Positions 1,685 through 26,662 of a DNA stretch of 26,681 nucleotides are shown here, piece after piece; positions within the stretch are counted from its first letter, which is position 1, and every line of letters begins with the position of its first letter. The translations under genes and the position numbers were made by a program. Under the pieces are notes generated by a model that ran no database searches, was not told where the DNA came from, and was given only the letters and a program-made list of their open reading frames with translations. Origin of the DNA: a virus. The stretch is taken from IMG/VR virus record IMGVR_UViG_3300006870_000071, positions 1 to 26,681 of that record. One strand, written 5' to 3'.

Positions 1685-1689
1685 AATGA

Positions 1690-4147: not shown

Positions 4148-4170
4148 TATTCAGATGGGAATGTTTTCTA

Positions 4171-4182
4171 TAGATATTTATA
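4171..4182 (-). promoter_or_regulatory. T4-type late promoter (TATAAATA)
   Basis: TATAAATATCTA on the minus strand lies in a 56-base non-coding gap. It contains the full T4 late box TATAAATA (4175-4182), which in T4 is recognised by the gp55 sigma factor with gp33 and the gp45 clamp. Its near edge is 28 bases upstream of the 113 aa gene, giving an expected leader of about 20 bases. The same 12 bases precede gp8. Confidence 0.75.
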
Positions 4183-4203
4183 TTAACGAAATCCCAAAAA
4201 AAA

Positions 4204-7400: not shown

Positions 7401-10400
7401 TCCAACTTCAAATGTTCCTATTGATCCATAATTTGTCAATGATGAACTATTAGAAATTTCTAATAATTTTGGAATATAATCTACACTACCATTACCATCA
7501 AAGAATTGATAGAATTTTGTAAGTGGTTTTAAGTTAGCAGCATAGAAGTGTGTGTTTCTGGATCTCATGTATTGTTCGTTTCCAGAAGAAATAAGAACAT
7601 CTCTGGAAGATACACGTGTTCTCGTTTGTCCCCGAAGATTTACATTAGCAACTCTTCTTGTTGTAGTTGAAGAGGAGTTTTCAAGTCTAATAGTTCTTAC
7701 CCAAGTATCACTAGATGGTGATAATTTAATATTTCCATTGTATGAAACTACGTTGAATGGATTTACATTTTCCACCCTTGTTGCCAGTGGTTGTTCAATC
7801 CAACCAATGCTTTCATACTTTAAAGTTATAGTATTTCCAGTTTTTTGAACGTTAGAATCTAAAAGATTGAAATTGGAAGATAAATCCAGATTTTCGTCGG
7901 TGATTTCGGATTCTGGAGAAATTGCACCCTTTAAAGTATTAGTACTAATAATTGTAGTCAGTTCTTGTGAATTTGGATCTATCTCAATAGAAGATACATC
8001 TACATTAATCAAAGAATTATTTTTAAAATCATCAACAAAAAATCCAGTTTTAAATCTATTATTTCCTTGAGCGTCTTGTACTTGAAGAGTTTGTGTATTT
8101 AACTCCAACAATGAAAGAGATGTTACTCTTTCTAAATTTTCAATTCTATCTTCAAGTTTACCAATATCCCTCATCGTATATCTTCTGTTATCTACAAGAG
8201 ATATAGTAGCATCATTTGGATCATAAAGGTATGCTGGAAGTGTAATTGTACCGACCTCCATAAGTCCATCTGGATTCGAATTGACTGGAGGTTTTGGATT
8301 TATTTCTGAAGTTCCTTTCTTCACAATAAAGTTTCCAAAAATATCCAAATATACCTTATCAATTCTTGGCAGGTAATAAGTATATCCAATTAAAGAACTT
8401 TCATTTGGTTTTAAAACAAATTTGGGTAAAGTTCCAAAATCTCTTGAATCAAAATCAAATGGAGACTTATCTGTGGCAGTAAACTGCGATACTCTTGGTC
8501 TAAAATCCAAGGTGTCAGACGATCTTATTTGTCTTGGACCAATATTTGGAATATCTTCTGAAAATCTTTCTTTATCATAACTTAGGACCGTGTAAACGTC
8601 CCCATCATCGGAAGATGGTATTGTGTAGTGATCAAATATTACTTTTAGTTTCTTTGATGGTATTGGAGTATTCAGATTTCTAATAATTTTCGAATAATCA
8701 TAATATTGGTCTTTTTGTCCCTTATCTAAGATATAAGAAGAAGTAATATCCTTATAAGATCCTTTTATAATTAATTGTAAAGGATAAGAACCATTAGATT
8801 CTTCTAAAGTTACCGTTTCCCCAGCAACAAATCTATCTTTATTCAAATATACTACCGATAATTTAAACCCTGATTTAGAAATCACTCTCGCTACGGCATT
8901 GCTTGAGAGACTCTTAATATTTTCTCCTATAATGGCATTACTTACCGCAGAACTATCAAAGAATTGAATTTGATCTAAAATTGGAGAATTTTTGTCAAGA
9001 GACTCATACACCGCAATAACTTTTACTACATCTGGCCAATTTAAAGAAATTTCTTCATCTTGAACCCTCAGTCCATAATTTTTATTGTAAGTTAATCCAT
9101 CATCAATAGATGAATTTTCATTACTTCCAGATTGAGGATACTTTGAATATACGATATCAAGAACAGAACTTTTGGTATATTCCTTTATCTTATTCTGAAT
9201 ACCAGATTTCTTAAGTGTTACATTAACTACAGCATTACTCCCATTTGTCAATCCATTAATGGTTACTTGACTTCCATCGTTGTTTATAGTAAATGAATCA
9301 GAAGTTACTGTCCCAATTCCACCGCCACTGTAATGAACAGAGTATCTTTCCTCGTCAAAAGACTCAAATACAATTCCAGATGTAAAAGAACTGGTATCAA
9401 TTGTTAATTGTCCACCCGATATAGTTTGATTTTCAATCTGATCTGAGATTTTTAATGTAGAACTAGAAAGATTTACTGATTCTATATTGGACTCTGTAAG
9501 TTGTGCATAAAGATAACTTTTTTCTTGATTTTTTAAAGTGGGATAACCCAATTTTACACTGTTAAAAGTTCCAACCCCAACAGAACCATTTCTGACGCCA
9601 GATACTGTGGTTGTTGTAGTTAAAGTTAAACTGGTAGTGTTGTTTGCTGTTACTCTATTAAAAGTTTCATCACCAGTTCCAGTTTGATATCTAATAATAT
9701 CTCCTTCTTTAATTCCACCAAATGTTTTTCCAGAACTTGTTAATGTGTTTCCAGAAATTGATATATTAGAAATTCCATTTGGTAAATTAAAAGAATCTAA
9801 TACTGAATCAGCAACAAAATCTGCCCCAAATCCAGAAACAGCAGTTGTTTGTTTTGTCGATTTAATATCTTTAGTTCCATACACAACAATTGACTCAATT
9901 GTTGCAGAAACATCGATGCCATTGATAATTAATTGTTCGCCAGCAGAAAATGTACCTGAAGTCTCTCTTAAAGAAATCGTGCTTCCAGTACCAGAATCTA
10001 CTGCGTATCCACTAGCACCACTACTCTTTCCCTTAATATAAGTTGAAGTTATAAGTCCTAATGGTGCTACAGGAGTATTTAAAGTGAGTTTTGTATGTGT
10101 TTGAATATCATACAAGTACAAATCCCAATTGGTTGCTGCTCCTTCATAAGCAGCATCGGTTAAATTAAAAGTATATACTCTAGCATTTCCAATTTTATTT
10201 CCTGTACCACCAAATTGATCATAAAGATCAATTTTTTCTTTTTGTTTAGGTGAACCAGAAACATTATTAACTCTTAAGAGATTTCCCATCTCAAAAGATA
10301 CATTTGCATTAGAAATTTGTAAAGTATCTCTCGGTTTTTCTACATCTATAATAGAATTAGAAACAGTTTCTACATTATATCCACCGACATAAGCTTCTCC

Positions 10401-11465
10401 AGGAGAAACTTTAACGCACATTAAATCATCTGATGGAGTATTTAATTGATCTGTGGATTGAGTTTCAAAAAATAGACCATCATTACCTAACTTATTATTT
10501 AAAGAATTATGCACACTTACCTTAAAGTTATCTAATGCATAATGTCCAGATTCTTCGTAGGTTCTTTCCGCAATATAATCACCAAGTCTGGAAAGTTCTG
10601 TTTTAGACTCTATTTTCTTTATTTTTCCATCTTGTACTCTAAGTAATTCAATAAAATTGGTATCATTAATATCTGTAATTAATTTTTTTGTAAGAGTTAA
10701 TTTGATTTGCAGTCTATCAGCACCTGGTGCTGCATAGTTTGTAAATCCTTTAGCATTATCATACAGAGATTCATCATCTTTTGCATTTACTAAAAGTTCT
10801 TGTATTGATAATCCTACTCTATATGAAGGTGTATTTGTGTAATCATCGAGTATGATAGTTTGTTTTGATACAGCAGCAAAATGTCCTCTTACAAAATAAA
10901 CCCCATCACCAATAGATGCCGCAGACCCAATCGAAGTCGCATCCAAATTAATTAGAGATGCAAAAGGAGTTCCTGCATTAATAGTAGTATTTCCATATAT
11001 TATATTTTCATCGCAATATAAAGATTCCCCATCTTCAAACTGCTCAAAGTCAAAATTACTATTAGAATTTTTATATTTTACATAAATTGTTACGTATTCA
11101 ATATTAGAATTATTGGGTAAAGAGACATATTGTACCGTTGCTGTACTTCCAGATAGTTGCCCAGTTATAGTTTTTCCTATAAACTTATCAATATATAAGG
11201 ATATGTTAATACCAAGTTGTTGAGTATTTAATTTTACAGCATAAAATTGTCCATCATATACAATATTTCCTGGAATTACTACAGACCCTTCTTTAAAGGT
11301 ATAACTACCAAAAGATTCAATTTGATTTTGCAGTATTGATTGTAAGGTTGTCAGTTCTCTTGCTTGAACCGGATATCCTGGCTTAAATAAGACCCTATAA
11401 AAATTCTTATCAGAATCAAAATCATCAAAATATGGATTGATATTTAAATCTGTTTTTTGTGCCAT
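4398..11465 (-). CDS. Very large DUF4815-type virion (baseplate/fibre) protein
   Basis: 2355 residues. The N-terminus (residues 12-66) reads YFDDFDSDKNFYRVLF, KPGYPVQARELTTLQSIL and FKEGSVVIPG, the signature of the DUF4815 family known from cyanophages. Further known blocks follow. RYTMRDIGKLEDRIENLE (about 1093-1112) is a helical linker. YDPLAQSFSVGG through VTFDYPIYLAPGQEYAIV and IAQMGE to SLFKSQNGSIWTANQLQDMK (about 1530-1705) is a large conserved beta domain. The C-terminus GTDQAHAPKIKDLRTIAL is a common ending of such proteins. Between them lie several GExIxGxxSGA modules (near residues 97, 473, 845 and 1432), one GNGY repeat (1827) and one GGEIIAYSN...GHEVGD-type module (1977-2020). Position after gp8 suggests it replaces T4 gp9 to gp12, the peripheral baseplate and short-fibre proteins. 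It starts 5 bases after gp8 with a weak ribosome site. The exact role is inferred. Confidence 0.8.
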   Translation of the reverse strand: MAQKTDLNINPYFDDFDSDKNFYRVLFKPGYPVQARELTTLQSILQNQIESFGSYTFKEGSVVIPGNIVYDGQFYAVKLNTQQLGINISLYIDKFIGKTITGQLSGSTATVQYVSLPNNSNIEYVTIYVKYKNSNSNFDFEQFEDGESLYCDENIIYGNTTINAGTPFASLINLDATSIGSAASIGDGVYFVRGHFAAVSKQTIILDDYTNTPSYRVGLSIQELLVNAKDDESLYDNAKGFTNYAAPGADRLQIKLTLTKKLITDINDTNFIELLRVQDGKIKKIESKTELSRLGDYIAERTYEESGHYALDNFKVSVHNSLNNKLGNDGLFFETQSTDQLNTPSDDLMCVKVSPGEAYVGGYNVETVSNSIIDVEKPRDTLQISNANVSFEMGNLLRVNNVSGSPKQKEKIDLYDQFGGTGNKIGNARVYTFNLTDAAYEGAATNWDLYLYDIQTHTKLTLNTPVAPLGLITSTYIKGKSSGASGYAVDSGTGSTISLRETSGTFSAGEQLIINGIDVSATIESIVVYGTKDIKSTKQTTAVSGFGADFVADSVLDSFNLPNGISNISISGNTLTSSGKTFGGIKEGDIIRYQTGTGDETFNRVTANNTTSLTLTTTTTVSGVRNGSVGVGTFNSVKLGYPTLKNQEKSYLYAQLTESNIESVNLSSSTLKISDQIENQTISGGQLTIDTSSFTSGIVFESFDEERYSVHYSGGGIGTVTSDSFTINNDGSQVTINGLTNGSNAVVNVTLKKSGIQNKIKEYTKSSVLDIVYSKYPQSGSNENSSIDDGLTYNKNYGLRVQDEEISLNWPDVVKVIAVYESLDKNSPILDQIQFFDSSAVSNAIIGENIKSLSSNAVARVISKSGFKLSVVYLNKDRFVAGETVTLEESNGSYPLQLIIKGSYKDITSSYILDKGQKDQYYDYSKIIRNLNTPIPSKKLKVIFDHYTIPSSDDGDVYTVLSYDKERFSEDIPNIGPRQIRSSDTLDFRPRVSQFTATDKSPFDFDSRDFGTLPKFVLKPNESSLIGYTYYLPRIDKVYLDIFGNFIVKKGTSEINPKPPVNSNPDGLMEVGTITLPAYLYDPNDATISLVDNRRYTMRDIGKLEDRIENLERVTSLSLLELNTQTLQVQDAQGNNRFKTGFFVDDFKNNSLINVDVSSIEIDPNSQELTTIISTNTLKGAISPESEITDENLDLSSNFNLLDSNVQKTGNTITLKYESIGWIEQPLATRVENVNPFNVVSYNGNIKLSPSSDTWVRTIRLENSSSTTTRRVANVNLRGQTRTRVSSRDVLISSGNEQYMRSRNTHFYAANLKPLTKFYQFFDGNGSVDYIPKLLEISNSSSLTNYGSIGTFEVGETVIGYDGGNEVISFRLCSGNHKDGPFDSPSKTFTTNPYFSTETLSQSYNQSSKLLNVDTFALSEEAQGKYYGYVKVGVKLVGQNSGAVAYVKDLRLISDSSGDIIGSFFLQNPHTTPAPTVRITTGTKTYRLTSSSTNKTPLPGSKLISSAETTYKSEGRFEVRQQQTTRVVTTFYDPLAQSFSVGGNIEAPTANGQNDDANGAFLTAADLFFANKPSGNDPVRIEIRTVELGTPTRTVIGNPVTLTPSEVNVSTNGETPTRVTFDYPIYLAPGQEYAIVAVAETSNEYEMWIAQMGEETVNTQSLPNSESVIYSKQFALGSLFKSQNGSIWTANQLQDMKFKLYKANFTSSTGTAFFYNPTLDESNGYVEILNNNPITTLPKTLTLGITTTSDSGAIGILTTGRKIAGNNTFTYAYIVGTGGPADNISNTSGGINYGTGTYDLQTTSVTGNGSGLVLNVTGSGGSLSFNSISSAGNGYQVGDVVGVTSSIGRDATFTVSSVVDLDTLYVSGVQGTSDSFVTTGAGLTYYNDSGSTISLPTIEILSSNGGEDLNSGKYISVSHFDHGMYSGTDKVILTDIEPSVSSTVLSSTLSINETTSISVASTSTFTTFEGQTVSPTYLGYVKIGGEIIAYSNVGNGTLTINSRAVEGKAQPHEVGDTVTKYELNGVSLRRINGITHDVSSLGNGIDEYRIAIDMSSNGVDRSTNNNNRPELSFTTQSSVGGNFCKATENIQFNEIVPNYDILTPSSSTSVEASIRTISGRSVNGSETPFIDNGFEFVELNEVNKLNSVRMVASSINETTKLTSLPRNKSFTTGIVLSTTDSNLSPMIYTDTAITEFKLNRLNRPISDYSADNRVNSILFDPHAAVYVSNTVNLSQAATSLKVILGAYRHESADFRVLYSLIRADSSEVAQEFELFPGYDNINIGTDGTITPINPAKNSGNPDTFVPASLENQYLEYEFTADNLDLFTGYTIKIVLSGTDQAHAPKIKDLRTIALR

Positions 11466-11470
11466 GTTTT

Positions 11471-13018
11471 TTAGAATTCCAGAATGATTTTAACGTCTTC
11501 TTTTTGCCTAAGATTTCTCTCAACTTCGGGTCTATTATCGATGTAAATAATTGCCCCTGTCTTCTTATTTATCTCTGGTGTAGCAAGTCCCTTGATGAAA
11601 TTAACACCCAAATTCACTCCATTTAAAGTTGTCCCATTAAAGGAAGAATCTATACTTGTATTACCAATGCCAGATATACTAATATTTTGGGGAACACTAT
11701 CTACTTCAGAAACAAATTCTATTACATTAGAAGTTGTTCCAATCCCAACATCAACATTTGTCCCGTCTCTTTGATTTAAAGAATTTGGAAAATAAAGTGA
11801 TCTATCTCTAAAATATTTTAGAATTTTTGTATCTTTATCCCAAGAAGCTACATAACCTTTTGCTTGATATTCAGTTTCATCAATTGTTCTAACCTGAGAA
11901 ACCACATCACCAATACTTGGAGTTCCTGCAAAATCTCCACTTAACTTTATAGAATAAAGTGATGAATATGATGATCCAGTAAAAGTGTTTCCAATTCCAC
12001 TAGAAGTGTATTGTGATACATTTTTTACAATTCCAACTTGTGAAAATTTTGTATCAACTGGAAAATCTTTTGTAGAATCATCAAACCTAGCATAAACTAA
12101 AACTCTGTCGGCACCCAATTCTGTGTAAATATCATATCCATGTCCCCTTGATGGAGGAATAATTGGAATTAAAGTTGCTGGATCAGATATATCCGATCTT
12201 TCAAAATCAACAATTCCCCAAGTATATCCACTGCCACCAGTCAGTACTTCCGCTTTAGTTATAATACCTCCTTTTGTTGTTATTCTAACTGTACCTCCAC
12301 TACCATCACCTAAAATATCATATGTCCCATTCGTATATCCGCTACCGCCATTTTCAATATAAACAACTTTAATTTGGTCGTTATCATTACCAGATTCTCT
12401 CACATCAACAATTTGAGAGTCTTCTGTAGTTGTCAACCAATTGTTAGGAAGAACAATATATTCTGTAGAATCAAACTTGATTACATCATTTGGAGATATG
12501 GAAAACAAGTATTTCCAAATATATCCATCGACGTATTCAACTGGTTGTAAATCTGTTGATGTTGGTTCATATAAGGAAGAATTTCCTTCTGGTTTGGTTC
12601 CGGAAGAACCATTACTCAAACAAATATAAACTCTAAAATCTTTATTGATTACATAATAATCCGAATTGTATAATGTAGTTGTTCCAGAATTTGGAGTTGG
12701 GTTCAAGGCACTATAATCGTGTCTATACATATCATAGTTTGTGTCGGAAGTCCACTGGACTTTTCTTACCACTCTTCTAATGTTTTCACTAGTAATTCTC
12801 TTACCAAATAATGCAGTATCTCTATAATGATTGAGATACTGCGTATTGTCCGTAGGAGCTGGAGGCGACTCATCCCAACCAGAGTCCCTACCAAATCCCG
12901 TAGCACTTGAATTTGGCAATCCTAAAAAGACATAATATGAATTATTATCATCTAATACAGAATTTATAAAATTATCAGCATTCAATATTCTAAATTGATC
13001 TGTTACTACAGCAGCCAT
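11471..13018 (-). CDS. 8: Baseplate wedge subunit gp8
   Basis: This is a wedge protein that in T4 forms a dimer binding gp7 and gp10 in each of the six baseplate wedges. The start MAAVVTDQFRILNADNFINS, then YYVFLGLPN, then the motif VRKVQWTSDTNYDMYRHDYS (about residues 84-103) and VINKDFRVYICLSNGSSG (about 123-140) are typical of gp8 in T4-like marine phages. VEYVDGYIWKYLFSISPNDV (about 162-181) is another conserved block. Length is 515 residues against 334 in T4. Part of the excess is a GGSGYTNG...GGSGYTWG repeat pair at about residues 219-275. It is the first gene behind a late promoter box 20 bases upstream; no Shine-Dalgarno is visible in the A/T-rich leader. The 2355 aa gene follows after 5 bases. 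Confidence 0.85.
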   Translation of the reverse strand: MAAVVTDQFRILNADNFINSVLDDNNSYYVFLGLPNSSATGFGRDSGWDESPPAPTDNTQYLNHYRDTALFGKRITSENIRRVVRKVQWTSDTNYDMYRHDYSALNPTPNSGTTTLYNSDYYVINKDFRVYICLSNGSSGTKPEGNSSLYEPTSTDLQPVEYVDGYIWKYLFSISPNDVIKFDSTEYIVLPNNWLTTTEDSQIVDVRESGNDNDQIKVVYIENGGSGYTNGTYDILGDGSGGTVRITTKGGIITKAEVLTGGSGYTWGIVDFERSDISDPATLIPIIPPSRGHGYDIYTELGADRVLVYARFDDSTKDFPVDTKFSQVGIVKNVSQYTSSGIGNTFTGSSYSSLYSIKLSGDFAGTPSIGDVVSQVRTIDETEYQAKGYVASWDKDTKILKYFRDRSLYFPNSLNQRDGTNVDVGIGTTSNVIEFVSEVDSVPQNISISGIGNTSIDSSFNGTTLNGVNLGVNFIKGLATPEINKKTGAIIYIDNRPEVERNLRQKEDVKIILEF

Positions 13019-13050: not shown

Positions 13051-16000
13051 TTAGGGGGGAGTTGGATTTCTCTTACGAAGAGCACCTGTTTCTCTTATAC
13101 CAACATTTCTTCTTTGAATTATTGGGTATGTAGAAAGACCAGAAACAATATTTCCTGTTACACCTATAGAAATTGGATTGGAAGATCTTTGTAATCCAGA
13201 AGTATTTGACAGTCTTCCCCAAGAGAAATGTCCAACAGGAGTGTATATAGATCCTTGAGTTGCAATTCCAACCAAATTGGAATTAGAATGTACTCTACAA
13301 GTTATGATACCTGTGCTTTCATTCAACTGATCAACAACATAAATGTTGTCAAGATAATTAGTTCCAATCCCAATAGTTTCCGCATCAGATGAATTTATCG
13401 AAGTAACTCCATTTCCAACAACAGTGTCAAAAATATAGATTGGATATCCTACTTGCAGTTGAGTTCCAATTAAAGATTCTAAAGTAAACTCTATAGCTAA
13501 ATTTGGAATTGTTGTTGATGCAATTCCAACAATAGATCCAGATTCTCCCTGAATATTTGTGAAATTCTTTACAAGTTCGATTGAATCATTGCCAGTCATT
13601 GTAGATATTGAAGATGTCGATGTCCCACCAACGATTAATCCATCAAAAGAACTAAAATCAGGATCTTCATATCTAAACAATTCAACACCATCGACAAATA
13701 TTTCAGTATCAGTTGTGGATACATCACTAATTATATTTGCTACTGGGAATACCAATGTTTCAATAGAATCTCTTGCTTTAGAAACTATTTCACCATTTAT
13801 ATTTTTATCAACTTTTTGCTTTATCAAACTTAATGGTCTATAATTTTCACTAATGCCGGGACCAGAATACAAGTTTGTTTCAAACTTATCGGAGAATGAT
13901 AAATCTGTAACAGTTCTCTTATCCTGAGATAAAATATTTGGATATTCATTGGATTTGAGTATCTGAACCACATCTCCTACCTTTATAGTTTCATTGATAT
14001 TGGTTACCTTTGTAACATCAACACCAGTTCCTTCATAAAAATAAATCGAAATATTATCATCTGGTTTTGGGGCAGTTGTAAATGTTAATGAAGTTCCACC
14101 ACCGAAATTATAAGAGAACCCTGGTTTCTGAAGAATACCATTAATGAATATCAATAAGCAGTTTTCAAGTTTAATTCTTGATCCTTTTTTAGTCTCAAAA
14201 CTGAGAAGATCTCCATTGTAAAATAGGGGGAAAGTTGTTCTAGATCCATTTTGATAGTTTTTAATGGAATCAATAAAATCTAAATCTCCAAATTCCCAAG
14301 AAGCAAATTTATCTCGATATGTTTCCAATACGAGCAATTCAAAATCATGAATTGGAGATGATAATCTATAATCTGTAACTAAACCAACAGGTTTAAATAC
14401 ATCTCCTCTTTGGAAAGAATATCCTTTCTTAGTTATCTCAAAATCAGTTACTCCATAATAGGTTGAACCAATTCCAGTCGCACCTACAGGTCCAACATTT
14501 AAACTAATAGATAATCCAATTCCAGTCTGTGTTGTCAGTCCAATACCAAGTCTAGAAACACCTATTACTGAAAGATTTTCATAAGAGGGTGATGACACAA
14601 ATATTTGTGGATTAGTATAACCTGTTCCACCAGCACCAATGTTAAAGGAAAGTGAACCTCCAGCACCAACAACTGCAGTAATACTTGCAGGATCTCCACC
14701 ATGATTGGAATCATAAACAGTAACTCCAATTGAAGTAAGACCATTATATCCAGAACCATAAGTTCCACCTACTAATCCCGTTGTAATTCCAGCAATGGAA
14801 CCTCCAGCACCAACTACAGCGGTAACAGATGCCCCGACAAGAGGAGCAAAACCAAGTCCAGGTGTAGAACCATACGAAACAATAATTCCACCCCTTGGAG
14901 TTTCATTTTGATTTATGTCATAATCGGAAAAAACATACTCTAAAGGATCTGTATCTGGTTTTGTTATACCAGAAAAAACTAATGTTGTTATTCCAGCAAT
15001 AGTATCTTCTAAAATATCAAAATTACCATTTGGATTATTATCAGTCGATGGTTGTTGGAAAATACCATTTATCAGAACAATTCCGCTTCCACCAATAGTT
15101 CCAATACCTGTGGTATCAGCACCACCAACTTTCATTGTAAATGTTCTTCCAATTCCATTAAACTGGTCGGACAAATCATCATATATTTTATTTGTCGTAT
15201 AAGTAGATCTTAAAAATACTCTTCCATTAAAATCTGAAGTTTCGTAATCTATGTTGTAAATTGTTCTTTCAATTTGGGGATTTCCTCTTGGTGGATCTAC
15301 AAAGTGTAGTTCATTTTCTACAATATTATATGAACCTCTATAAATGTCTACCACTGTAGATGAGGTGTGAGAAGTTGCACTAGTTCCAACAAATCCTCTC
15401 TTTGTACTGACTAAATTAAACGATCCATTATTTGTAATTGGACCAGAGGTTGTAGTTCCTAATCCAACATTAACAACTTTAAAATATTCATCATCTATCT
15501 TCAAAATATCTGAAGGAATTATTGAAGATATTCCACTTAAAACAAATAATTCATCTGTATCAGAAATATTTTGAGATAAAGTATGTGATACATTTGTAAG
15601 AATTATTGGACTTTGGACAAGATCGTCAAGGGTAATAATTGCTTTTTCATTTTTCTTCTTCATTTCAAATTGATGTGCATTACCGCCACCAAGATTTGTA
15701 AATGTTACTGCTGTCCCAGAAATACTTGTAGATATCTGGAATTTATCATAATCAAGATTATTAACAATAGCAAAAACCGTAGAAGGTAATGTTCCGCTAG
15801 TAACACCATCAGTGTATACCATAGAAGTTCCTGCAATTCCAGCAACTGTTGATTTTGGAGTATAAATTAATTCTTCTCCATTTTTAAAGAAGTGGTTTTG
15901 TATATTAAACTCACCTGTTGATGGATTAAGAATATTTTCATCTGTTGGGTTAAATGTTTTGACAAAAATGGGAACTCCATCTGATGTTAAATTAAAGTTA

Positions 16001-19000
16001 GATCTATTAATTCTACTTCCATTTATTGAATTATAGAATTGTATATCTATAGATTCTTCAATATTTCCATATTCTAATAATGGTGGATCATTGTCTCTAT
16101 CCAAAATGGTATAAAAACACTGACTAAACGCTGAAAGAGTGATAGTTTCTGATGAATATTCTGCATCTGGATAGAAGTTTAATTCTAAATCTGATCCACT
16201 ATTATCTCCACCAAAAGTTCCTATTCCAGAAGCACTATCAAAGGTTCCAATACCACTTACACTAAGAAGAGGTGATTGCTGAACATAAACGTCAGTTCCA
16301 TCTTGTATAAGCATTATTTGATGAATAGCTTTAGTAGATCCAATGCCAACTTCTACTAAAGATTTGAATGAATTGAAAAGACCTTTGTCTATCGATACAA
16401 TGTTCGTATTTCCTGTTCCAACCGTGAAATCGGAACGATATAAAATAGATCTCTCATAACCAACTGGTTGACTATCTGTTTTAAATCTATAAAAACCAGT
16501 TCCTAAAGTTGTGGTTCCGAATCCAACAATCTTTGCTCTAAAAGTATTGTTATTTGAGGAAGTATTCGTATAATTTAATGATAAAATTCCTCCGGAAGAT
16601 ATATTCGCACCAAAAGATCCTATGAAATTGTTAGATATTTCGGATGTTTCAGATTCTGTATCAAAATAATATTCCGATAAGTATGTATTAGAACCATCGG
16701 AAGTTACATATAATTCAACAAAGTTCATTTGGTTTGTTGAATTATCAATTACTTGAACATTGGCATACAAAGAGTTTGAATTTGAATCTAGGTTTACAAC
16801 AGTAGACGTTTCTCCAGAAGTAATAATGCCAGCAGAACTTACTAAATCTACAAAACCTACTGCAGTTGTTCCAAAACCTACTGCGGAAGATCTAAAAGTA
16901 TTTCTTACAAGTTTTAGATCATAGTCAATATCATATGGGTTTTCTGGAACAAATCTTAAATATCTATTATTAAATTCATCTTCTATAATGATAAATTCGC
17001 CATAATTTTCTCCTAAAATATGGACTTCGGATGATCCAACGTTAGAAATGTTACCTTTTTCAACTAAGTAATAATCATCATTGTCATTTAATAAAACAAT
17101 CTCCGTAAATTGAATTTGACTACCATCAAGATTTGTTATTCTAACTAAAAGATTTTCATATGAAATTGAGGGATCTAACAATAAAACATTTAAAAATTCG
17201 CTAGGTTCATCTTCAAAATTGGAAAATTTATTACTAATATCATCTATTGCAAGAACGCGGTTTCCAATATTATCAATATAATCTGTAAGTCTTACAGTTT
17301 CTAACTTAATATATCTAGAATTTCCAGTTATAGGATCAATATCAATATCCTTTACATTATCAAAATTATAAATTGTATCTACTCTAAGATCATCTATATA
17401 ATCAATTATAACATTTGATTGGTCAATTCCTAAAAGATCGGAAGCATTGGTTTCTTGCTCTATTTGAGTATCAGCAAAATCTTTTAGTCCACTAGTATGC
17501 AATAGTGGTTTTATATTTTTTTCTACTTCTTTATATTCTTTGGTGCTCTTTACAGAGTATGAAAGATTTTGATAGTAATCATTATTTGATGTAACTTGAT
17601 TGTCCAGACTTAATTTTCCAATCTCATCTATCCATCCAACATTCTTTGGAATTGAATAACTAACATTAAAAGTTCCTTCATTAATATCAATTTGAATAAT
17701 TGTCGCTACTGTTGAAGAATATTTTCCAGTAATAACTTCACCAACGGATAGTTCATAAGTTCCCGATACTTTAAGGGTGGTTCCATCATAACTAGAAACA
17801 AATAAATCCCGTTCAGTGTTATTTGTAATTAACTGCTCACCAATAGAGAATGACAATTTACTTTGCTTCACATCAAAAGTAGGATAATCGTTAAAAGATA
17901 TGATTTTTGGATATCCTTCTTGTATAGTTTTAGCAGTTCCTATATTAGTAGTTAATCCGGAAGGTCCATAATATGAATCTGCCAAATCAAATACTACCTT
18001 ATCATATGGAGATGTCTCTTGATAATTAGATACCTTAAAGAATCTATATCCATAATCTTCAGAATTAAATCCAGATCCATCATCAAGTTGTTGTATTCCT
18101 TCAAGAAATACTAAATCTCCGACAGCAAATGGTAAAGGGTCATATCCAAAAGTTGGTTTAGTTATTTCGCACGTAAATGTGGTGTCAGAATCTGCAGTTA
18201 CTTTTTGAATAGAAATTCCATTAGTATTATTAACTGCAAATAATTCTACAGTTTGTTCTGGAAGACCTTTTGGTTTGTCCTCTATTTCTATTCTTCTTAT
18301 GGTATCACCAACCAAAGAGGCATTAAGAATTCCGGAATCAATTTTTTCCCTAGTAGAAGAATTTACAATAACAATATCTGGTGCTTGAATATATCCTTTG
18401 CCACCATCTAGAATTGTTATAGTGTCTATTGTATTCGAATTTGAAAGTATTATATTTGAAGATACAAAAGCTGTTGGATTGAGGGTCGGATCAAATGGAT
18501 ATTCAAATTTTTCATTTTTAATTCTTTGCTGTTTTATATTGCCAATAGAAGAAGACTTTGCAAGAACATATGAATCTTTCCCATCAGTTGAAGTAATACT
18601 CTGAACTACTGGTATTTTTTTATAACCATATCCTCCAGAAGGTAATTCTATTTTATCAATTCCTCCTTTTGCAGTTTTTGATCTTGTGGTGTATTTTAGA
18701 ATATCGCAGTCTTCGGAGGAGTAAGAAAGATTTTCTGGAACGTTTTTGAGTAATACGCTAAATGTTTTTTCTCCCACTCCAATAATGTTATATGTTCCAG
18801 TATATGTACTATTTGTGAAAAATATTTCAGAATAATTTTTTACGTCTTTATCAACAATACCCAAAACTCCATTATTCTCCAAGTTGTAATAAAGTAAATT
18901 TGGTAATTTGGAATCATAGTTTATAGTAATAGAAGCATTTGCCGTACCAACTGTGCCTACCTCAACAATATTAAATTGCCTCTCCAATGATGTAGATTTA

Positions 19001-22000
19001 AACTCATCTTTAAATTCAGAATCTCTATAAATCTTAAAACTATACCCATAAAGTGAAGAATCTGATAAATCAAATACTAAATTATTATTTTTTATCGTTT
19101 TCAATCTTGGATTAATTAAAGATATAAACTGAGACGCACCACCAGTTCCTGTGATGTCAATAGTTTGTGGTGGAGTGGCTATAGAATCTAAGTAAGTGCT
19201 GCAAAGTTTAATAGTATCAGAATCTACTTTGAATACATAATAGTCGCCTGTTGTTATTCCAGTTGCTGGTGTAACTGCAGAATAATATATTTTATCCCCA
19301 GTTCTTAAATGATGATCATTAAGTGTAATTGCATTTAGTGTTGTACTAATTACAGAAGAATCAAACTCTATAGGATTGACCAGTATTCTGTTTTGATCTT
19401 TAGAAATTCTTACAGAGGTAGAAGTCCCGATTCCAACAGATAGATTTGGATTTACTGTTAAATTAATAACATCTCCAGTAAGCATTTCATGAGATGTTGA
19501 TACTGAAACAATAGCTTTTATTCTCTCAACATTTCCTGTAACTTGCTCATACACAGATTCTAAAGAATACAAATCACTATCAATACCGCCAGAATGGAAG
19601 AATAACTCATCAGAATTTATTGAAGTTTTTAATCCAATAATATTTTTACCCTTATTGACTATAAAAAGGTTGGATGGGGATAGTAAACTATATGAAGATA
19701 CGCCATCAGTTGAAATTGATAGTGTTGTTCCATTTGCAGTATAAACAACTTGTTGGTTATTTTTAAATGGGTGGTTTTCAATGTAAATAGATTTTGTGGG
19801 AATTTGTCTGGAAACATTCAATTCATCACCAAAATTAAAAGTCGCAATATGAGATAATCCTGCTGTTGTGCCAAATCCGACCGATTCTAATGGATTGAAG
19901 AATACTATATCATCAACTTTAGATGTAAAAATTTCAGTTGAAAAATCAATACTGAATGAATCGGATTTAAAGTTTACTATAGAATTTTCATCATGAGAAA
20001 CACCTGTCAGTCCTCTTTCAACTCTCAGTATATTTTTATTTTCAAATACTTCTAAGACTTTAAGAGTTTCTGTACCAATTCCAATACTGCTTCCCACAGA
20101 AACATTTTGTGGAATTTTGGATAAGTATATTTCTGTTCCACCAATACTTATTGATGATGGAATTTGAGAAATTAAAGTTGAACTTTTGGGAGTAATCTTT
20201 ACTTTATGAGATCCGTTTAATCTGGAAAGAGTTGTAGAAAAACCTGAAATAGTTACAACATCTCCATCATCAAGTGAGTGATAGGGTAATATGGTTACCT
20301 TTACATTTTCTTCATTTTCCCATGTAAATATGGAATTTTCATATACTAGTGCTTCTGTTTCTACATTAAGAATATCTTTTCCTTCCAAAGAAGATACGTA
20401 TGCATAAGCATCAGATCCACCTGTTCCAGAATTGTCAAAATTTAAAATATCTTCAATTTTATAATTTGAACCAGAATTTATTACTTCAAATCTTTCTACT
20501 TCTCCCGTGGAAACAGAATCTAAGACTATTTTTTGATCTTTATAATCATCTATTTTAGAAATAAAATCATAATTGGAATATACATCAGAAATTTTATATG
20601 GGAAAGTATTTCTAAGTAATTTAGAATTTCCAAAGTCAAAAGATTGATCTAAAGTATCATTTTCTTCTAATGTTTGTGATTTATATTCATTTCCGATAAA
20701 ATATGGGAAAGCAGGATTTCCATTTTCGTCAATTGTTGCATAATATGCATATACTCCATTTGGAAACTCCTTAGTTACTCCATATCTACCATTTTTTTCA
20801 TCTAAAGTCGTATTTGAGGAAGAAAACTTATAATCTTCAACAAAAAATCCTTCTTCAAAACCATCTGGTCTATCAGTATATGTGGCATCTAACGAATAAC
20901 CAGATACAACTCTTGTTATTGTAGATGATCCATTATTTGGATTAGATCGCGCAAATGGACCATAAATTGGATTTCCATCATATGCCCACCCTATAATACC
21001 AGATATATTGTTCTCTCTTTCTCCGAATGAAGTTCTCAATTCTTCAAAATATGAAGATACTGTATATTTTAATTTATTGTCTGTTTCCAGTAAAACTTCA
21101 TCTCCAAATTTATAGTTATTGTTTACAGTAAGACTTCTAATATTTGGAAAGAATTTTACTCCTTTTCCGGAAGAATTTACTGTAATATATGTCTGACTAT
21201 CAGAATATCCAATTCCAGAACTCAATACAATAACCTCTACAATTTTTCCATTGTCAATAATGGGTCTGAGTTTTGCTCCAGAACCAGTTCCACTTAAATC
21301 TGTAACAATTAAATCTGGTAAAGAATAGTATTCTTTACCCCCATATTGTATATTTACTGATACTATTTGTCCATTTGAAATATTTGGTCTTAATGCTGCG
21401 CTTTTTCCATTTTTTACTGTTATTACTGGATTTTTTTGATAGTTTAATATTGTAGATCCATAACCTGTTCCATTATCATAAAGATATAATTGTTCGATCT
21501 TACCCCTAACAATGGGTGTTGATACAACTTCTTTGTATATTTGGGTTGTAGTTCCAAAACCAATGGGACTATATTTTATAGATACTGAGATTTCTGGGTA
21601 ACTGAAGTATTGATAACCAGATCCTCCATCAGAAAACTTTTCATATTCTTTTCTATTATAAAAAGAGTTATCGGTCCCTCCAACTCCAGCATTACATATT
21701 CTAAAAGAATCTTCGTCAATTTTTAAAACATAATACTGACTTGATTTTGATAGACCCGATATTTGAGAACTTTCATAATCATACTCAATCAATTCTCCAG
21801 TATTAAATCCATGATTTTTAAAATTAATAGAATTTGTTATTGTTGATATCCCAGACGGATTAACGATCAGTTTTCTATTAGTGTACCCACTACCACCGTT
21901 CACTACTTCAATTTTTGAAATTGTATTATTTAAATTTGTAGTGGTAATTTTATGTTTTCCAGCAGTTCCTGTTGAAAATCCTATTACATTTGAATTACTT

Positions 22001-24684
22001 TCATAATCTTCATATGTTTCATACAATGAAACTGTTTTATTGTTTTCAACTTTTACAAAATAAAATCCATTATTTACTAAAGTATCAGTTCCGAACCCAA
22101 CTTTTATTGGAAGATTTCCATTTGAATTGTATAGAATTTTATCACCATTGTTTAAATTATGATCTTCCAATAATACAATTCTATTTCCAGTCGTACTAAT
22201 TCCTCCACCATTTACCGTAGTTCTTCCGTCAAAACTTATTTCTCTTACTCTCTTCGTGATTATTGGTTTTAATGATGCGCCAGATCCATTTCCTCCAGAA
22301 ACTTCTGCGGAAAGAATTTTATCAATATCGTAGTTTTGAGAATCAATATAAACTTCTTTTATAGATCCACTAATTACTGGTTGCGCTAAAGCGTTAGTTG
22401 TACCTGAAGAAATGGATATTTGTGGAAGATTTATAACATCGTAATTTTCTCCCCCAACCAAAATATCAACAGACTCTAAAGGTCCATAATATACTTTATC
22501 ATTTGACTTATAATTACTAATCTCAACTCCATTAATAAGCATTCCCGTTACACCGGGAACAGTTTCTTTTCCAGGACCTTTTATTTTAGATTGGAGAGGT
22601 ATTTTTTTCAGTATATTTTGGACTCCAATTTCACCAGATTTGTGGGAATAAAGCGTAAAAGTTCCCCTTACAGATCCTGAATCTGGGTTTTTAAATTTTA
22701 TTGGATTTATTCCAATAAAATGTGGAGAAGAATATAATTTTATTTGTTTTTTATTAGTTAAAACCTCAACATAGTAACTTCCAGTATTTAATCCCACCAA
22801 CGGTGTTGAGTCTGGTTGATAAAAAACTCTATCTCCAGTTAAAAATGGAGAGTTATTTTCAAATCCAATTATTGTTGTATAATCACCATCACCAATATTA
22901 TCTTCTACTGGAACACCAGTCGAATCACTATTAATGTCCAAACTTATAGTATATCTGTAATTGTAAGGATTTTCGATAGATTCTGATGGTAAAGAATTTG
23001 ATGCTACGTAAGAATAGTCCTCTCCATCAAAATATAAATTTTGTATATCTGACGTAATTACGTTATTTCCATATTCTAATGAAACTCCAGAACTTTTTGC
23101 GGTATTAAGTTTTCTCCTTAGATCATACTTTGAATTTGGATTTTTACCGGGGAAAGAACCGTCTATTACTACAGAATTTTCGGCAGATAAAACTCGACTG
23201 ATATGAGGATCATCACTTCCACTAATAACAATATCATTATCTCTTTCAACCAACTCTACCCTATCACCAGATTTTAAACTAGATCTATCAATTTTGTCCG
23301 ATAAGATATAATTCGATTGATCATTAATTATTCCATATCTTGTTGAAGTATTATAAATCCATGAATTGGCAAAGATTTCTTTATATGTTTTATTGTTTGA
23401 ATTTTTAACTTCATCACCTATAAATTTAATAGATAAGATATCACCTTCAGAAGTATTAATCTCTTCAGAAGATGGTGTAAAATCAGATAATACACCTAAA
23501 ATCCTAAACTCAATTTTCTTTGTATTATCATTATTTTCATAACCATAATAAGTTTCATCATTTATAATTAAAGAATTTTTTGAAATATTTTCTGTCAGTC
23601 CAGAACATCCCAAAAACTGATTTACTGTTTTACTTGTGTATGTAAAAGTATTATTTCCTACAATCAATGTTCCACTCTCAGGGAATCCAATTGTAGAATC
23701 TACTGTTATTACAGAAGAATTAGTAGATGCTTCTAAGATTGATTTGGTATTTGGAGTTATGACAAAATTCCCTTGAATTGCAGAAAACTCACTATTCCCA
23801 ACATATAGAGATATTTTATAATATTCCTTATTTTTTCTGAAAAAAGGTTCTACAGAAGAAACGGAAGCATTTGTTAGAGGATCATTAGATTTAAATATTG
23901 TTTGTCCTAATAAGTTATTTACGTTTTCACCAGATATTTTTTCAACAATGATTACTTCCTCCTTTACATATTCTGCAAAAGAAGGTTTTATTAAGTAATT
24001 TTCTAAATTTATAACTTTTGGATTTTCATTATAAAGAACATTAAATAAAACTCTAAAAGATTCATCAGTGCCCTTTGCCCTATAAAAAGAATTTATTTCC
24101 TTCAAAAAATTACCAACATTTAATTCCGAAGTAAATTCAGTTTGTTCTAATCCAGGAGATATAGTATACTTTAATTTTTTATAAAACTCCTGTAGAAATA
24201 AAGAACTCAAATTCTTTACTTCAGACCCCAAATTGTGTTCTGCAGTAGAACTAGTTGAAAATATTAATTCTTCTCTATTTAAGTCTTGTTCATACGCAGT
24301 AATTCCACTAAAACCACGAATACATCCAGTAAAAGTATTTCCTACAATGTTGGTATAAGTAATTATTTCGTCATCAATTTTTAAGAGGCCATATTTTTGA
24401 GGATATCCTTTTGTACTAAAAACTTCTATTTCAATATCATCGATTGCTACTGCGGAAGTTAATGTAGTAAATCCAACAACAACATCTGATGTAAGATTAT
24501 CAACCTTCAAATATTGGTCTAAATTATCAACAATATCGACTGGTCCGCCCTGATATTCTTGAGATATGTAATATTGTTTTAAAAATTCAGAAACCTTTGG
24601 ATTTTCTTCCAATATAAAACTTGGAAGATGACTTTCAATAATCTGCTGAACCTTTACCCTAGATTCAAAACCAGTCTGTATCAT
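13051..24684 (-). CDS. 7: Giant baseplate wedge protein in the gp7 position
   Basis: 3877 residues in one uninterrupted frame, against 1032 for T4 gp7. Its place between gp6 and gp8 and the cyanophage-type start (MIQTGFESRVKVQQIIESHL, then FLKQYYISQEYQGGP and NLDQYLKVDNLT) indicate the wedge initiator gp7. Most of the length is a string of beta modules. IDDEIITYT...RGFSG occurs at 98-130 with relatives near 328, 1536 and 3060. GMLINGVEISNYKS is at about 712. H-x-L-x-x-GD modules start near 603, 831, 951, 1630, 1780 and 2921. GGSGY-type repeats are densest at about 925-1170. A YHYH domain lies at about 1225-1335. YDDLSDQFNGIGRTFTMKVG is near 3170, with ING-x-x-Q-P modules near 3198 and 3503. 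The end reads RKRNPTPP. No enzyme motif is seen. It starts one base after the gp6 stop with a weak AAGAAA upstream. Role in the wedge is inferred from position; the many modules suggest surface or receptor-facing parts. Confidence 0.78.
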   Translation of the reverse strand: MIQTGFESRVKVQQIIESHLPSFILEENPKVSEFLKQYYISQEYQGGPVDIVDNLDQYLKVDNLTSDVVVGFTTLTSAVAIDDIEIEVFSTKGYPQKYGLLKIDDEIITYTNIVGNTFTGCIRGFSGITAYEQDLNREELIFSTSSTAEHNLGSEVKNLSSLFLQEFYKKLKYTISPGLEQTEFTSELNVGNFLKEINSFYRAKGTDESFRVLFNVLYNENPKVINLENYLIKPSFAEYVKEEVIIVEKISGENVNNLLGQTIFKSNDPLTNASVSSVEPFFRKNKEYYKISLYVGNSEFSAIQGNFVITPNTKSILEASTNSSVITVDSTIGFPESGTLIVGNNTFTYTSKTVNQFLGCSGLTENISKNSLIINDETYYGYENNDNTKKIEFRILGVLSDFTPSSEEINTSEGDILSIKFIGDEVKNSNNKTYKEIFANSWIYNTSTRYGIINDQSNYILSDKIDRSSLKSGDRVELVERDNDIVISGSDDPHISRVLSAENSVVIDGSFPGKNPNSKYDLRRKLNTAKSSGVSLEYGNNVITSDIQNLYFDGEDYSYVASNSLPSESIENPYNYRYTISLDINSDSTGVPVEDNIGDGDYTTIIGFENNSPFLTGDRVFYQPDSTPLVGLNTGSYYVEVLTNKKQIKLYSSPHFIGINPIKFKNPDSGSVRGTFTLYSHKSGEIGVQNILKKIPLQSKIKGPGKETVPGVTGMLINGVEISNYKSNDKVYYGPLESVDILVGGENYDVINLPQISISSGTTNALAQPVISGSIKEVYIDSQNYDIDKILSAEVSGGNGSGASLKPIITKRVREISFDGRTTVNGGGISTTGNRIVLLEDHNLNNGDKILYNSNGNLPIKVGFGTDTLVNNGFYFVKVENNKTVSLYETYEDYESNSNVIGFSTGTAGKHKITTTNLNNTISKIEVVNGGSGYTNRKLIVNPSGISTITNSINFKNHGFNTGELIEYDYESSQISGLSKSSQYYVLKIDEDSFRICNAGVGGTDNSFYNRKEYEKFSDGGSGYQYFSYPEISVSIKYSPIGFGTTTQIYKEVVSTPIVRGKIEQLYLYDNGTGYGSTILNYQKNPVITVKNGKSAALRPNISNGQIVSVNIQYGGKEYYSLPDLIVTDLSGTGSGAKLRPIIDNGKIVEVIVLSSGIGYSDSQTYITVNSSGKGVKFFPNIRSLTVNNNYKFGDEVLLETDNKLKYTVSSYFEELRTSFGERENNISGIIGWAYDGNPIYGPFARSNPNNGSSTITRVVSGYSLDATYTDRPDGFEEGFFVEDYKFSSSNTTLDEKNGRYGVTKEFPNGVYAYYATIDENGNPAFPYFIGNEYKSQTLEENDTLDQSFDFGNSKLLRNTFPYKISDVYSNYDFISKIDDYKDQKIVLDSVSTGEVERFEVINSGSNYKIEDILNFDNSGTGGSDAYAYVSSLEGKDILNVETEALVYENSIFTWENEENVKVTILPYHSLDDGDVVTISGFSTTLSRLNGSHKVKITPKSSTLISQIPSSISIGGTEIYLSKIPQNVSVGSSIGIGTETLKVLEVFENKNILRVERGLTGVSHDENSIVNFKSDSFSIDFSTEIFTSKVDDIVFFNPLESVGFGTTAGLSHIATFNFGDELNVSRQIPTKSIYIENHPFKNNQQVVYTANGTTLSISTDGVSSYSLLSPSNLFIVNKGKNIIGLKTSINSDELFFHSGGIDSDLYSLESVYEQVTGNVERIKAIVSVSTSHEMLTGDVINLTVNPNLSVGIGTSTSVRISKDQNRILVNPIEFDSSVISTTLNAITLNDHHLRTGDKIYYSAVTPATGITTGDYYVFKVDSDTIKLCSTYLDSIATPPQTIDITGTGGASQFISLINPRLKTIKNNNLVFDLSDSSLYGYSFKIYRDSEFKDEFKSTSLERQFNIVEVGTVGTANASITINYDSKLPNLLYYNLENNGVLGIVDKDVKNYSEIFFTNSTYTGTYNIIGVGEKTFSVLLKNVPENLSYSSEDCDILKYTTRSKTAKGGIDKIELPSGGYGYKKIPVVQSITSTDGKDSYVLAKSSSIGNIKQQRIKNEKFEYPFDPTLNPTAFVSSNIILSNSNTIDTITILDGGKGYIQAPDIVIVNSSTREKIDSGILNASLVGDTIRRIEIEDKPKGLPEQTVELFAVNNTNGISIQKVTADSDTTFTCEITKPTFGYDPLPFAVGDLVFLEGIQQLDDGSGFNSEDYGYRFFKVSNYQETSPYDKVVFDLADSYYGPSGLTTNIGTAKTIQEGYPKIISFNDYPTFDVKQSKLSFSIGEQLITNNTERDLFVSSYDGTTLKVSGTYELSVGEVITGKYSSTVATIIQIDINEGTFNVSYSIPKNVGWIDEIGKLSLDNQVTSNNDYYQNLSYSVKSTKEYKEVEKNIKPLLHTSGLKDFADTQIEQETNASDLLGIDQSNVIIDYIDDLRVDTIYNFDNVKDIDIDPITGNSRYIKLETVRLTDYIDNIGNRVLAIDDISNKFSNFEDEPSEFLNVLLLDPSISYENLLVRITNLDGSQIQFTEIVLLNDNDDYYLVEKGNISNVGSSEVHILGENYGEFIIIEDEFNNRYLRFVPENPYDIDYDLKLVRNTFRSSAVGFGTTAVGFVDLVSSAGIITSGETSTVVNLDSNSNSLYANVQVIDNSTNQMNFVELYVTSDGSNTYLSEYYFDTESETSEISNNFIGSFGANISSGGILSLNYTNTSSNNNTFRAKIVGFGTTTLGTGFYRFKTDSQPVGYERSILYRSDFTVGTGNTNIVSIDKGLFNSFKSLVEVGIGSTKAIHQIMLIQDGTDVYVQQSPLLSVSGIGTFDSASGIGTFGGDNSGSDLELNFYPDAEYSSETITLSAFSQCFYTILDRDNDPPLLEYGNIEESIDIQFYNSINGSRINRSNFNLTSDGVPIFVKTFNPTDENILNPSTGEFNIQNHFFKNGEELIYTPKSTVAGIAGTSMVYTDGVTSGTLPSTVFAIVNNLDYDKFQISTSISGTAVTFTNLGGGNAHQFEMKKKNEKAIITLDDLVQSPIILTNVSHTLSQNISDTDELFVLSGISSIIPSDILKIDDEYFKVVNVGLGTTTSGPITNNGSFNLVSTKRGFVGTSATSHTSSTVVDIYRGSYNIVENELHFVDPPRGNPQIERTIYNIDYETSDFNGRVFLRSTYTTNKIYDDLSDQFNGIGRTFTMKVGGADTTGIGTIGGSGIVLINGIFQQPSTDNNPNGNFDILEDTIAGITTLVFSGITKPDTDPLEYVFSDYDINQNETPRGGIIVSYGSTPGLGFAPLVGASVTAVVGAGGSIAGITTGLVGGTYGSGYNGLTSIGVTVYDSNHGGDPASITAVVGAGGSLSFNIGAGGTGYTNPQIFVSSPSYENLSVIGVSRLGIGLTTQTGIGLSISLNVGPVGATGIGSTYYGVTDFEITKKGYSFQRGDVFKPVGLVTDYRLSSPIHDFELLVLETYRDKFASWEFGDLDFIDSIKNYQNGSRTTFPLFYNGDLLSFETKKGSRIKLENCLLIFINGILQKPGFSYNFGGGTSLTFTTAPKPDDNISIYFYEGTGVDVTKVTNINETIKVGDVVQILKSNEYPNILSQDKRTVTDLSFSDKFETNLYSGPGISENYRPLSLIKQKVDKNINGEIVSKARDSIETLVFPVANIISDVSTTDTEIFVDGVELFRYEDPDFSSFDGLIVGGTSTSSISTMTGNDSIELVKNFTNIQGESGSIVGIASTTIPNLAIEFTLESLIGTQLQVGYPIYIFDTVVGNGVTSINSSDAETIGIGTNYLDNIYVVDQLNESTGIITCRVHSNSNLVGIATQGSIYTPVGHFSWGRLSNTSGLQRSSNPISIGVTGNIVSGLSTYPIIQRRNVGIRETGALRKRNPTPP
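20700..21010 (-). other. YHYH domain within the giant gp7-position protein
   Basis: Residues about 1225-1335 carry IIGWAYDGNPIYGPFARSN, then LDEKNGRYGVTKEFPNGVYA and NGNPAFPYFIGNEYKS. This order (GWAYDGxPIYGP, D-x-x-NGR-x-x-T-x-E-x-PNG-x-YAY, G-x-PAFPY-x-IG) matches the YHYH domain family, which is found in many bacterial secreted proteins and whose function is not established. The domain sits between GGSGY repeats on both sides. Confidence 0.8.
21170..21910 (-). repeat. Cluster of degenerate GGSGY repeats in the giant gene
   Basis: Coding repeats read GGSGYTNRKL, GGSGYQYFSYPEI, NGTGYGSTILN, YGGKEYYSLPDL and SSGIGYSDSQTY, spaced about 40-90 residues (about residues 925-1170). Each is followed by an I-x-V strand and often by a SGTGS or GKG turn. 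Single further copies lie near residues 738, 1400, 2012, 2091, 3304 and 3350. Confidence 0.65.
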
Positions 24685-24685: not shown

Positions 24686-26662
24686 TTAGTTTCTTGTTAA
24701 ATTCCCGTTTGAGTAACTTGATGTATAATAATCTCTAGTAAACACATTTCCAGTTATTTCATCACCAGAAGCAATTACATCTCTAACCATATTTATCTTA
24801 CTTTTTGGAATATCAAATGAAAGATATAAATCTTTTAATCCAATAACATCGTTAGATTCTGGAAAGGCTTGGATTTCTATAATTCCATTCTCTCTTTCTG
24901 TTGATGTTATATTGATTGTTCCTATTTTAATCTCGCCTTTAACATAATCGACTGTTCCCACATTTTTTCCAACAACAGTTCCATCTGCTTTAACTATAGA
25001 AATAACTCCAGTTTTTGCAGTAACATTACTAGGTCTAGATAAAAATACTTGTCCTGCCTCAGTTGCATTATTCACCGAGGTTCCACGAGAAAGAACATTC
25101 GGCGTGTCTGTAAAATATACTATAGAAGATTCTCCAGAAACTTTAAATCCGGTCGATTTTATATTATATCCCTGCGGTTTTATATGGAATTGATTTCCAA
25201 AACACAATTCATATTGTGCAAATTGATTCAAAGATGCTGCTAAATCCCTTCTTATTCTCACTTTAGTAATATTGGATGTAATTGATTTATCAGTATTGTC
25301 GATTAATTGAAGAACTCTACTATACTTAAATCTTCCACCAAATTTATTAAGATCTAAAGATTTGGAATATGTAGTTAAATTGTTTGATACTCTAGTCTTT
25401 AAGGATTCTACACTGGAGATTTGAGAATTATTATAGTAAACAGCAGAATCAATCTCAACATAAAGAATCTTGAGATCTGTAATCTTTGTATTGATACCAG
25501 AAACAGTGTATTGTTTTAACTGATTTAAAATTTGTGCTTTATTAAAGTCTGAAACAAATGTTCCATTTTTTGGTTTAATGCTCAGAATAACATTTCCAAA
25601 TTGTGGAGGATCTAATTCTTCACCACCAACAACAGAAACAGATTCTGTATCAGGATATATTCTTTTTATAATGGCTTCATAATCTCTTGATGTTACTGCT
25701 CTATTCTGTGCAGAATAAATTTTTGGAGCATAATATTTTATAGAATCAACACTTTCAATACTAGAACCATTTTGTGATGCTTGATTTGTGGTTACTGTTA
25801 CTATTCCTGGGGAAATTATTTCTCCTTCAGAATCTACAATAGATCCAGAGAATGCAAATGTACTCGCACCGTTCCCATCCTTTCCATCAGTTACAATATA
25901 ATTTGCAGTAATAATAGTTCCATCATTACCATACTCATCTCCCAACTTCTTACCAAATATGCCATCTCCAAACTTTAACTCATATTTTTCATCTTGTATT
26001 TCTTGGAGAAGATAAATTCTAGAGGATGATGTTGTTTCTAAAATATTATCAAGTTGTTTATACTCTACTCCCAAAATATCTTCTTCTACATCCTCTCCAA
26101 CCTTTCTCACATAAACAGATAAAGTAGAAGTGTCAATAAAAGAATTATTTAAAACAAATCTTTGATCCAAAGATCCATCATAAATGAATTTTTTTGTTAA
26201 ATACGTTCCCTGATATACTTCTATCTCATTGAATGATGCTACTCCATTTTCCACAGGTGCGGTTATATCCTGTGGAATTGAAAAAGTATACGTATCATCA
26301 TTTGCGTTTCCTACGCACACTAGACCCCTCTTCAAGGTGACAGTGGGAGTAACTATACTAGTAGATACCTGAAAGGAAATAATTGCCTTTGCTGCCGTTC
26401 TAGAACGTGGTACATAACCAATATTCCTTGCAAGCGATACCACATTCTCACGAAGAGTGGCAGAGTCCAAGAAAGACTCATTTACAATCATATTACTGTT
26501 GAACGCAGTAATATAAGTATTATATGCAAGAGTATCAATCAAGACAGAAAAGTTTGACCCTTCAAAATCAAAGTCACTAAATGTGCTGTTTGCACGAAGA
26601 TAGTCTTTGATTGAGGTTTTTATCTGATCAAAATCTAGATTTGTAAACTTAGTAAAAGGCAT
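24686..26662 (-). CDS. 6: Baseplate wedge subunit gp6
   Basis: This protein dimerises between wedges to form the inner ring of the T4 baseplate. Length is 658 residues, almost the same as T4 gp6 (660). The start MPFTKFTNLDFDQIKTSIKD, then FEGSNFSVLIDTLAYNTY and ENVVSLARNIGYVPRSRTAA, is very close to cyanophage gp6. A Baseplate J-type block lies at about residues 305-367: YYAPKIYSAQNRAVTSRDYE, IIKRIYPDTESVSVVGGEE and QFGNVILSIKPKNG. The C-terminal third is variable beta structure. The start is secure because an in-frame TAG lies 5 codons upstream with no other start codon between. The only purine-rich site is GAGG, 12 bases before the ATG. The giant gene follows after a single base. Confidence 0.93.
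   Translation of the reverse strand: MPFTKFTNLDFDQIKTSIKDYLRANSTFSDFDFEGSNFSVLIDTLAYNTYITAFNSNMIVNESFLDSATLRENVVSLARNIGYVPRSRTAAKAIISFQVSTSIVTPTVTLKRGLVCVGNANDDTYTFSIPQDITAPVENGVASFNEIEVYQGTYLTKKFIYDGSLDQRFVLNNSFIDTSTLSVYVRKVGEDVEEDILGVEYKQLDNILETTSSSRIYLLQEIQDEKYELKFGDGIFGKKLGDEYGNDGTIITANYIVTDGKDGNGASTFAFSGSIVDSEGEIISPGIVTVTTNQASQNGSSIESVDSIKYYAPKIYSAQNRAVTSRDYEAIIKRIYPDTESVSVVGGEELDPPQFGNVILSIKPKNGTFVSDFNKAQILNQLKQYTVSGINTKITDLKILYVEIDSAVYYNNSQISSVESLKTRVSNNLTTYSKSLDLNKFGGRFKYSRVLQLIDNTDKSITSNITKVRIRRDLAASLNQFAQYELCFGNQFHIKPQGYNIKSTGFKVSGESSIVYFTDTPNVLSRGTSVNNATEAGQVFLSRPSNVTAKTGVISIVKADGTVVGKNVGTVDYVKGEIKIGTINITSTERENGIIEIQAFPESNDVIGLKDLYLSFDIPKSKINMVRDVIASGDEITGNVFTRDYYTSSYSNGNLTRN

Follow-up and report, generated by a model that had tools for sequence, protein, structure and literature searches.

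The gene at positions 13051..24684 (minus strand) of the window, the whole 26,681-nucleotide stretch of viral DNA analysed, encodes a 3877-aa baseplate wedge protein in the gp7 position. The protein is the usual giant gp7 of marine and freshwater cyanobacterial viruses, an ordinary representative of a well-populated family. Sequence and model comparisons support a gp7 core, homologous to residues ~727–813 of T4 gp7, within the N-terminal ~300 residues. The whole protein is probably a giant gp7 from a T4-like cyanophage: a scaffold of beta modules, anchored in the wedge, on which host-contact structures are presented.

Gene, neighbourhood and family

The open reading frame has an ATG start and no internal stops, in agreement with a sequence-only reading of the same DNA, which had described a single unbroken frame of 11.6 kb. 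It begins one base after the gene for a gp6-like baseplate wedge protein (24686..26662, minus strand, 658 aa; PF21379, phrog_219) and is followed by that for a gp8-like baseplate wedge protein (11471..13018, minus strand, 515 aa; PF09215, phrog_438). Downstream of the latter are a DUF4815-type gene, a gp13-position gene and a gp14-like neck gene (T4_neck-protein). The order gp6-gp7-gp8 is the same in the cyanophage isolates inspected. The DUF4815 protein (window 4398–11465, 2355 aa) has isolate relatives of ~2400–2760 aa, named VrlC, VriC or structural protein, and is covered by PHROG profiles mainly over residues 1 to ~1270.

Broken frames are found in the S-SKS1 record and in copies of the gene on contig 3300007960_000264, and an assembly or frame artefact was weighed as the source of the length. 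It has a negligible probability. The gene is tiled by overlapping, independent metagenome contigs with 98.5–100% identity and zero gaps (L002, gene bases 1–8487; L082, gene bases 6141–11634), and complete relatives measure 3861, 3867, 3870 and 3895 aa. The gap-free independent coverage rules the artefact out for both frame and length. Megablast of the gp7 gene against phages gave no match.

Two irregular records were seen among the relatives. The copies L027 and L112 (contig 3300007960_000264; 58% identity) have one in-frame stop near residue 2225, a nonsense variant or a sequencing error, in a gp7 gene that is otherwise colinear. The annotation of S-SKS1 (L163, NC_020851) splits gp7 into two partial genes with a gap, yet the underlying sequence is matched all along; the split is probably due to frame errors in the record.

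The profile phrog_2885 ('baseplate wedge subunit'; 4179 positions) matches residues 2–3314 (3346 bits, E=0) and also the C-terminal 579 aa (E=3.4e-137). A search with residues 1–300 finds 462 phage records, every one of which carries the name Synechococcus, Prochlorococcus, cyanophage or marine virus. The gp7-position proteins of annotated isolate records (coding length minus stop) comprise 1937 aa in S-CREM2, 1942 in S-H34, 3328 in S-RIM44, 3895 in S-SRM01, 4067 in Bellamy, 4107 in DSL-LC03, 4156 in S-SM2, 4225 in ACG-2014f, 4314 in S-CAM7, 4749 in S-T4, 5195 in P-SSM2, 6076 in syn9 and 6198 in S-RIM14. The size of the window protein is ordinary, since 3877 aa is mid-range in the family.

Environmental relatives (47–68% identity) align over 96–99.7% of the window residues that they span and are colinear essentially throughout; the three followed end to end are those of 3861, 3867 and 3870 aa. 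An exceptional size, a question raised by the earlier reading, is thus not upheld: close relatives with the same length and module order were looked for and found, and many isolates have longer versions. The earlier picture of conserved ends with beta modules and a YHYH domain between them is retained. Its restriction of conservation to the ends and a few blocks is not, the whole length being colinear among close relatives.

S-SRM01 and S-SKS1 ('baseplate wedge initiator', PHROG 2885) have the same synteny and whole-length colinearity. S-SRM01 is 49% identical to the window protein overall and 61–64% in the first 300 residues. Differences from these two are point changes and short indels, and the window protein is without a large insert. 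Matches to the window protein in syn9, S-CREM2 and S-H34 comprise the N-terminal core followed, in unchanged order, by the YHYH block; S-RIM14 has in common with it the gp7 position, a KGT motif and a YHYH domain. Most other modules are unrecognisable in these four, which are considered together with phrog_701 and phrog_4406, and an insert of ~500 aa is present near residue 114 in syn9.

Some members of the family have been detected in virions. The 'baseplate wedge initiator' of S-SZBM1 (6619 aa) is represented by 71 peptides from purified virions (PMC9146016), and ORF122 of S-CREM2 by 91 unique peptides in the virion proteome (PMC10665884). Both are gp7-position proteins other than the window protein.

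The gp7 core

T4 gp7 is reported to be absent from cyano- and pelagimyophages, with VrlC in its place (PMC7029224). GenBank records name the protein gp7 or baseplate wedge initiator, at odds with that report. The core of the window protein (residues 156–300, 23785..24219, minus strand) contains the motif FYxxKGTdeSfrxLFxvLYxE. With a profile of residues 1–700, hhalign pairs residues 193–293 with T4 gp7 727–813 (32% identity, P=2.2e-5); the block common to both is SFYRAKGTDESFRVLFNVLYNE in the window protein and DFYSTKGIEASYKFLFKVLYNE in T4 gp7. The HMMER score against T4 gp7 is 20.6 bits (best of 1000 shuffled T4 sequences, 7.2), and for the core segment alone 22.6 bits (best of 1000 shuffles, 8.4). 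T4 gp7 matches phrog_2885 at the same place (E=1.3e-4).

Structure-model alignments comprised the window and IMG/VR loci. In a Foldseek search with the AlphaFold2 model of residues 1–700, ranks 1, 4 and 8 of 350,542 chains are T4-type baseplate chains of gp7 length, at TM-scores of ~0.1 and with low core pLDDT: 9f4a_A0 (1031 residues) of a Klebsiella T4-type phage, 5iv5_BJ (1004 residues) of T4 and 5hx2_A, T4 gp7. The last is named gp7 in its entry; entries 5iv5 and 9f4a contain a gp7 of about these lengths. Model pLDDT is <50 at residues 1–69, 173–187 and 222–239, within the shared core, as might be expected for helices packing against gp6. The model being weak precisely there, the fold matches count as support and do not decide the matter.

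The homology is confined to ~100–150 N-terminal residues (~156–300 against T4 ~727–813). The helical part before it (residues 1–65, 24490..24684, minus strand; low-confidence AlphaFold2 helices at 13–18, 22–27, 29–43 and 52–55) resembles T4 ~650–700 by eye, T4 Pfam Gp7_helical being 643–689; residues 8–66 alone give no significant profile match to T4 gp7. Only part of the T4 domain V region aligns to the window protein by hhalign. PDB profile searches with two alignments (A1 and A2) gave no match at E up to 1.

An unrelated protein might occupy the gp7 position, T4 gp7 having been replaced by VrlC as PMC7029224 would have it. Consistent with this, no counterpart of T4 gp7 residues 1–640 is detected, and no Pfam gp7 model is above threshold on the window protein (Gp7_5th and Gp7_6th match T4, not the window protein). 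Such a replacement is nevertheless unlikely: T4 gp7 is matched by sequence and profile, with fold matches as support, and in these phages the VrlC-named proteins have a gene of their own, located after gp8. The gp7 identity, formerly a matter of gene position, now has sequence matches and supporting fold matches behind it. The protein is classed as a diverged gp7 relative, not a full T4-type gp7, because the T4 N-terminal ~640 residues are missing and Pfam domains V and VI were not found. T4 gp7 (1032 aa) is likewise encoded between gp6 and gp8. The shared core is N-terminal in the window protein; T4 has it in the final third of its gp7. The window protein is without the N-terminal ~640 residues of T4 and has ~3500 residues after the core.

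Modules, YHYH domain and insertion sites

Modules were searched for with profiles of 75-residue tiles (window protein and 41 near-full-length relatives) against all window proteins. By profile self-comparison three types of beta module are repeated, each in several copies, all on the minus strand. Type 1 occurs inside the gp7 region at residues 66–145 (24250..24489), matching residues 308–360 with E=1e-6, and as a second copy at residues 308–375 (23560..23763). Type 2 occurs at residues 603–670 (22675..22878), 823–898 (21991..22218), 941–1001 (21682..21864; matching residues 1774–1829, E=7e-10), 1633–1681 (19642..19788; weak), 1774–1829 (19198..19365) and 2918–2997 (15694..15933; weak). Type 3, a GGxGYT repeat for which no Pfam model matched in the scans made, occurs at residues 727–811 (22252..22506), 1085–1160 (21205..21432; matching gp14, E=1e-6 to 4e-6) and 2001–2125 (18310..18684; matching gp14, E=4e-7), with weaker copies elsewhere. 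It is also present in the gp14-like protein (residues ~210–386; window 224–1684) and the gp8-like protein (residues ~213–266). One module is therefore used in neck and baseplate proteins of this phage.

The presence of a YHYH domain is confirmed (PF14240, E=8.4e-24; residues 1223–1321, 20722..21018, minus strand), with a match at profile positions 89–185 of 193 only. YHYH domains have been predicted in a jumbo-phage survey to be tail-associated Zn hydrolases, with AOO14285.1 as an example (PMC7824862, the only relevant literature found on YHYH function). AOO14285.1 is the gp7-position baseplate protein of S-RIM14 (6198 aa, L294:11788–30384), so the prediction concerns this very family. By it, the interior domain would be a Zn-dependent hydrolase helping to breach the cell envelope, and the strict conservation of the core DGxPIYG and LDxxNG agrees with that. 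The conserved aspartates are still present. DGxPIYG, LDxxNG and YxY blocks are common to the window protein and bacterial YHYH proteins (PF14240).

The conserved bacterial histidines are missing in the window protein, in which no more than the C-terminal half of the model can be recognised. In a sample of 44 bacterial YHYH proteins, picked by a pattern requiring DGFPIYGP, these histidines (three, in GH and the first YHYH) are conserved in 40, 40 and 42; at the same positions the phage proteins have His in 0, 0 and 1 of 13, the residues being E/N/K, mostly A/S/T and mostly V/L/S. AOO14285.1 has N, A and L. No H-aromatic-H motif (HxH with an aromatic centre) is present in residues 1040–1340 of 78 family members, in 49 of which the second YHYH motif is YAYF (YAYY in the window protein). 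The best PDB match of the YHYH-region model (pTM 0.40) is a baseplate chain of phage JBD30, generic beta-barrels were matched as well, and no hydrolase is among the structure matches. A hydrolase is very improbable. The histidine test is strong, not final, since the sequences diverge over the N-terminal half of the YHYH alignment and a metal site might be formed from other residues. Judged from its residues, the domain is most likely kept for binding or structure rather than as a metal hydrolase.

Except at fixed sites, the longer relatives keep colinearity with the window protein. P-SSM2, S-T4, ACG-2014f and S-CAM7 share its N- and C-terminal blocks and their order, and have inserts of ~100 to 1065 aa, absent from the window protein, at residues ~3310–3340 and ~3674–3703. 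The former site (14665..14757, minus strand) is empty here and holds ~1065 extra aa in P-SSM2 and ~560 in S-T4; the latter (residues 3674–3703, 13576..13665, minus strand) holds ~120–400 aa in longer relatives. Over 78–98% of its length the insert of S-T4 resembles annotated tail fibres from other cyanophages (S-CAM9, S-8S55, S-SCSM1), and it has homologues among repeated genes at other places in ACG-2014f genomes. In P-SSM2 the insert gives a match to tail-fibre PHROG 5342 (E=2.5e-100); since other gp7 families match it too, it may consist of shared beta modules rather than fibre. A block of ~400 aa (residues ~2489–2889, 16018..17220, minus strand) is missing from DSL-LC03 and contig L038 at near-identical borders, which suggests a discrete block.

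Proposed role in the baseplate

T4 gp7 is a monomer, present in six copies per tail, and with gp8 makes the platform for gp6 (PMC3004832). By analogy, the core of the window protein, placed in the N-terminal ~300 residues by sequence similarity, and supporting fold similarity, to T4 gp7 ~727–813, would join gp6 and gp8 and start and hold each wedge, with a single chain in every wedge and six in the virion. Each chain would have a mass of very roughly 0.4 MDa, as estimated from its length. The remaining ~3500 residues, a beta-module chain with a degenerate YHYH domain, would form a large outgrowth around the baseplate and take over the role of the T4 peripheral pins. Insertions at fixed borders are seen in relatives; the similarity of the inserts points to a host-contact function. 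Sequence is gained or lost at fixed borders and one segment, that of S-T4, is fibre-like, on which grounds the outgrowth is proposed to present changeable host-contact parts.

A more far-reaching version is offered tentatively. The protein would be a rearranged gp7, with an N-terminal wedge core and an arm of several thousand residues bearing fixed sites for fused tail-fibre segments. One polypeptide would then be both wedge protein and bearer of the peripheral, receptor-binding role divided in T4 among gp10, gp11 and gp12, and the YHYH domain, lacking its histidines, would bind glycans or proteins.

The family is a known one, and with so many matching records and longer versions size alone is not special. 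What is added to the first reading is the location of the gp7 core, the missing YHYH histidines and the insertion site. A gp7 core is placed where gp7 has been reported missing (PMC7029224), and the histidine test of the proposed YHYH hydrolase is negative in AOO14285.1, the example given with the proposal. With the insertion site for fibre-like segments mapped, sequenced isolates can be used to test whether gp7 content is linked to host range.
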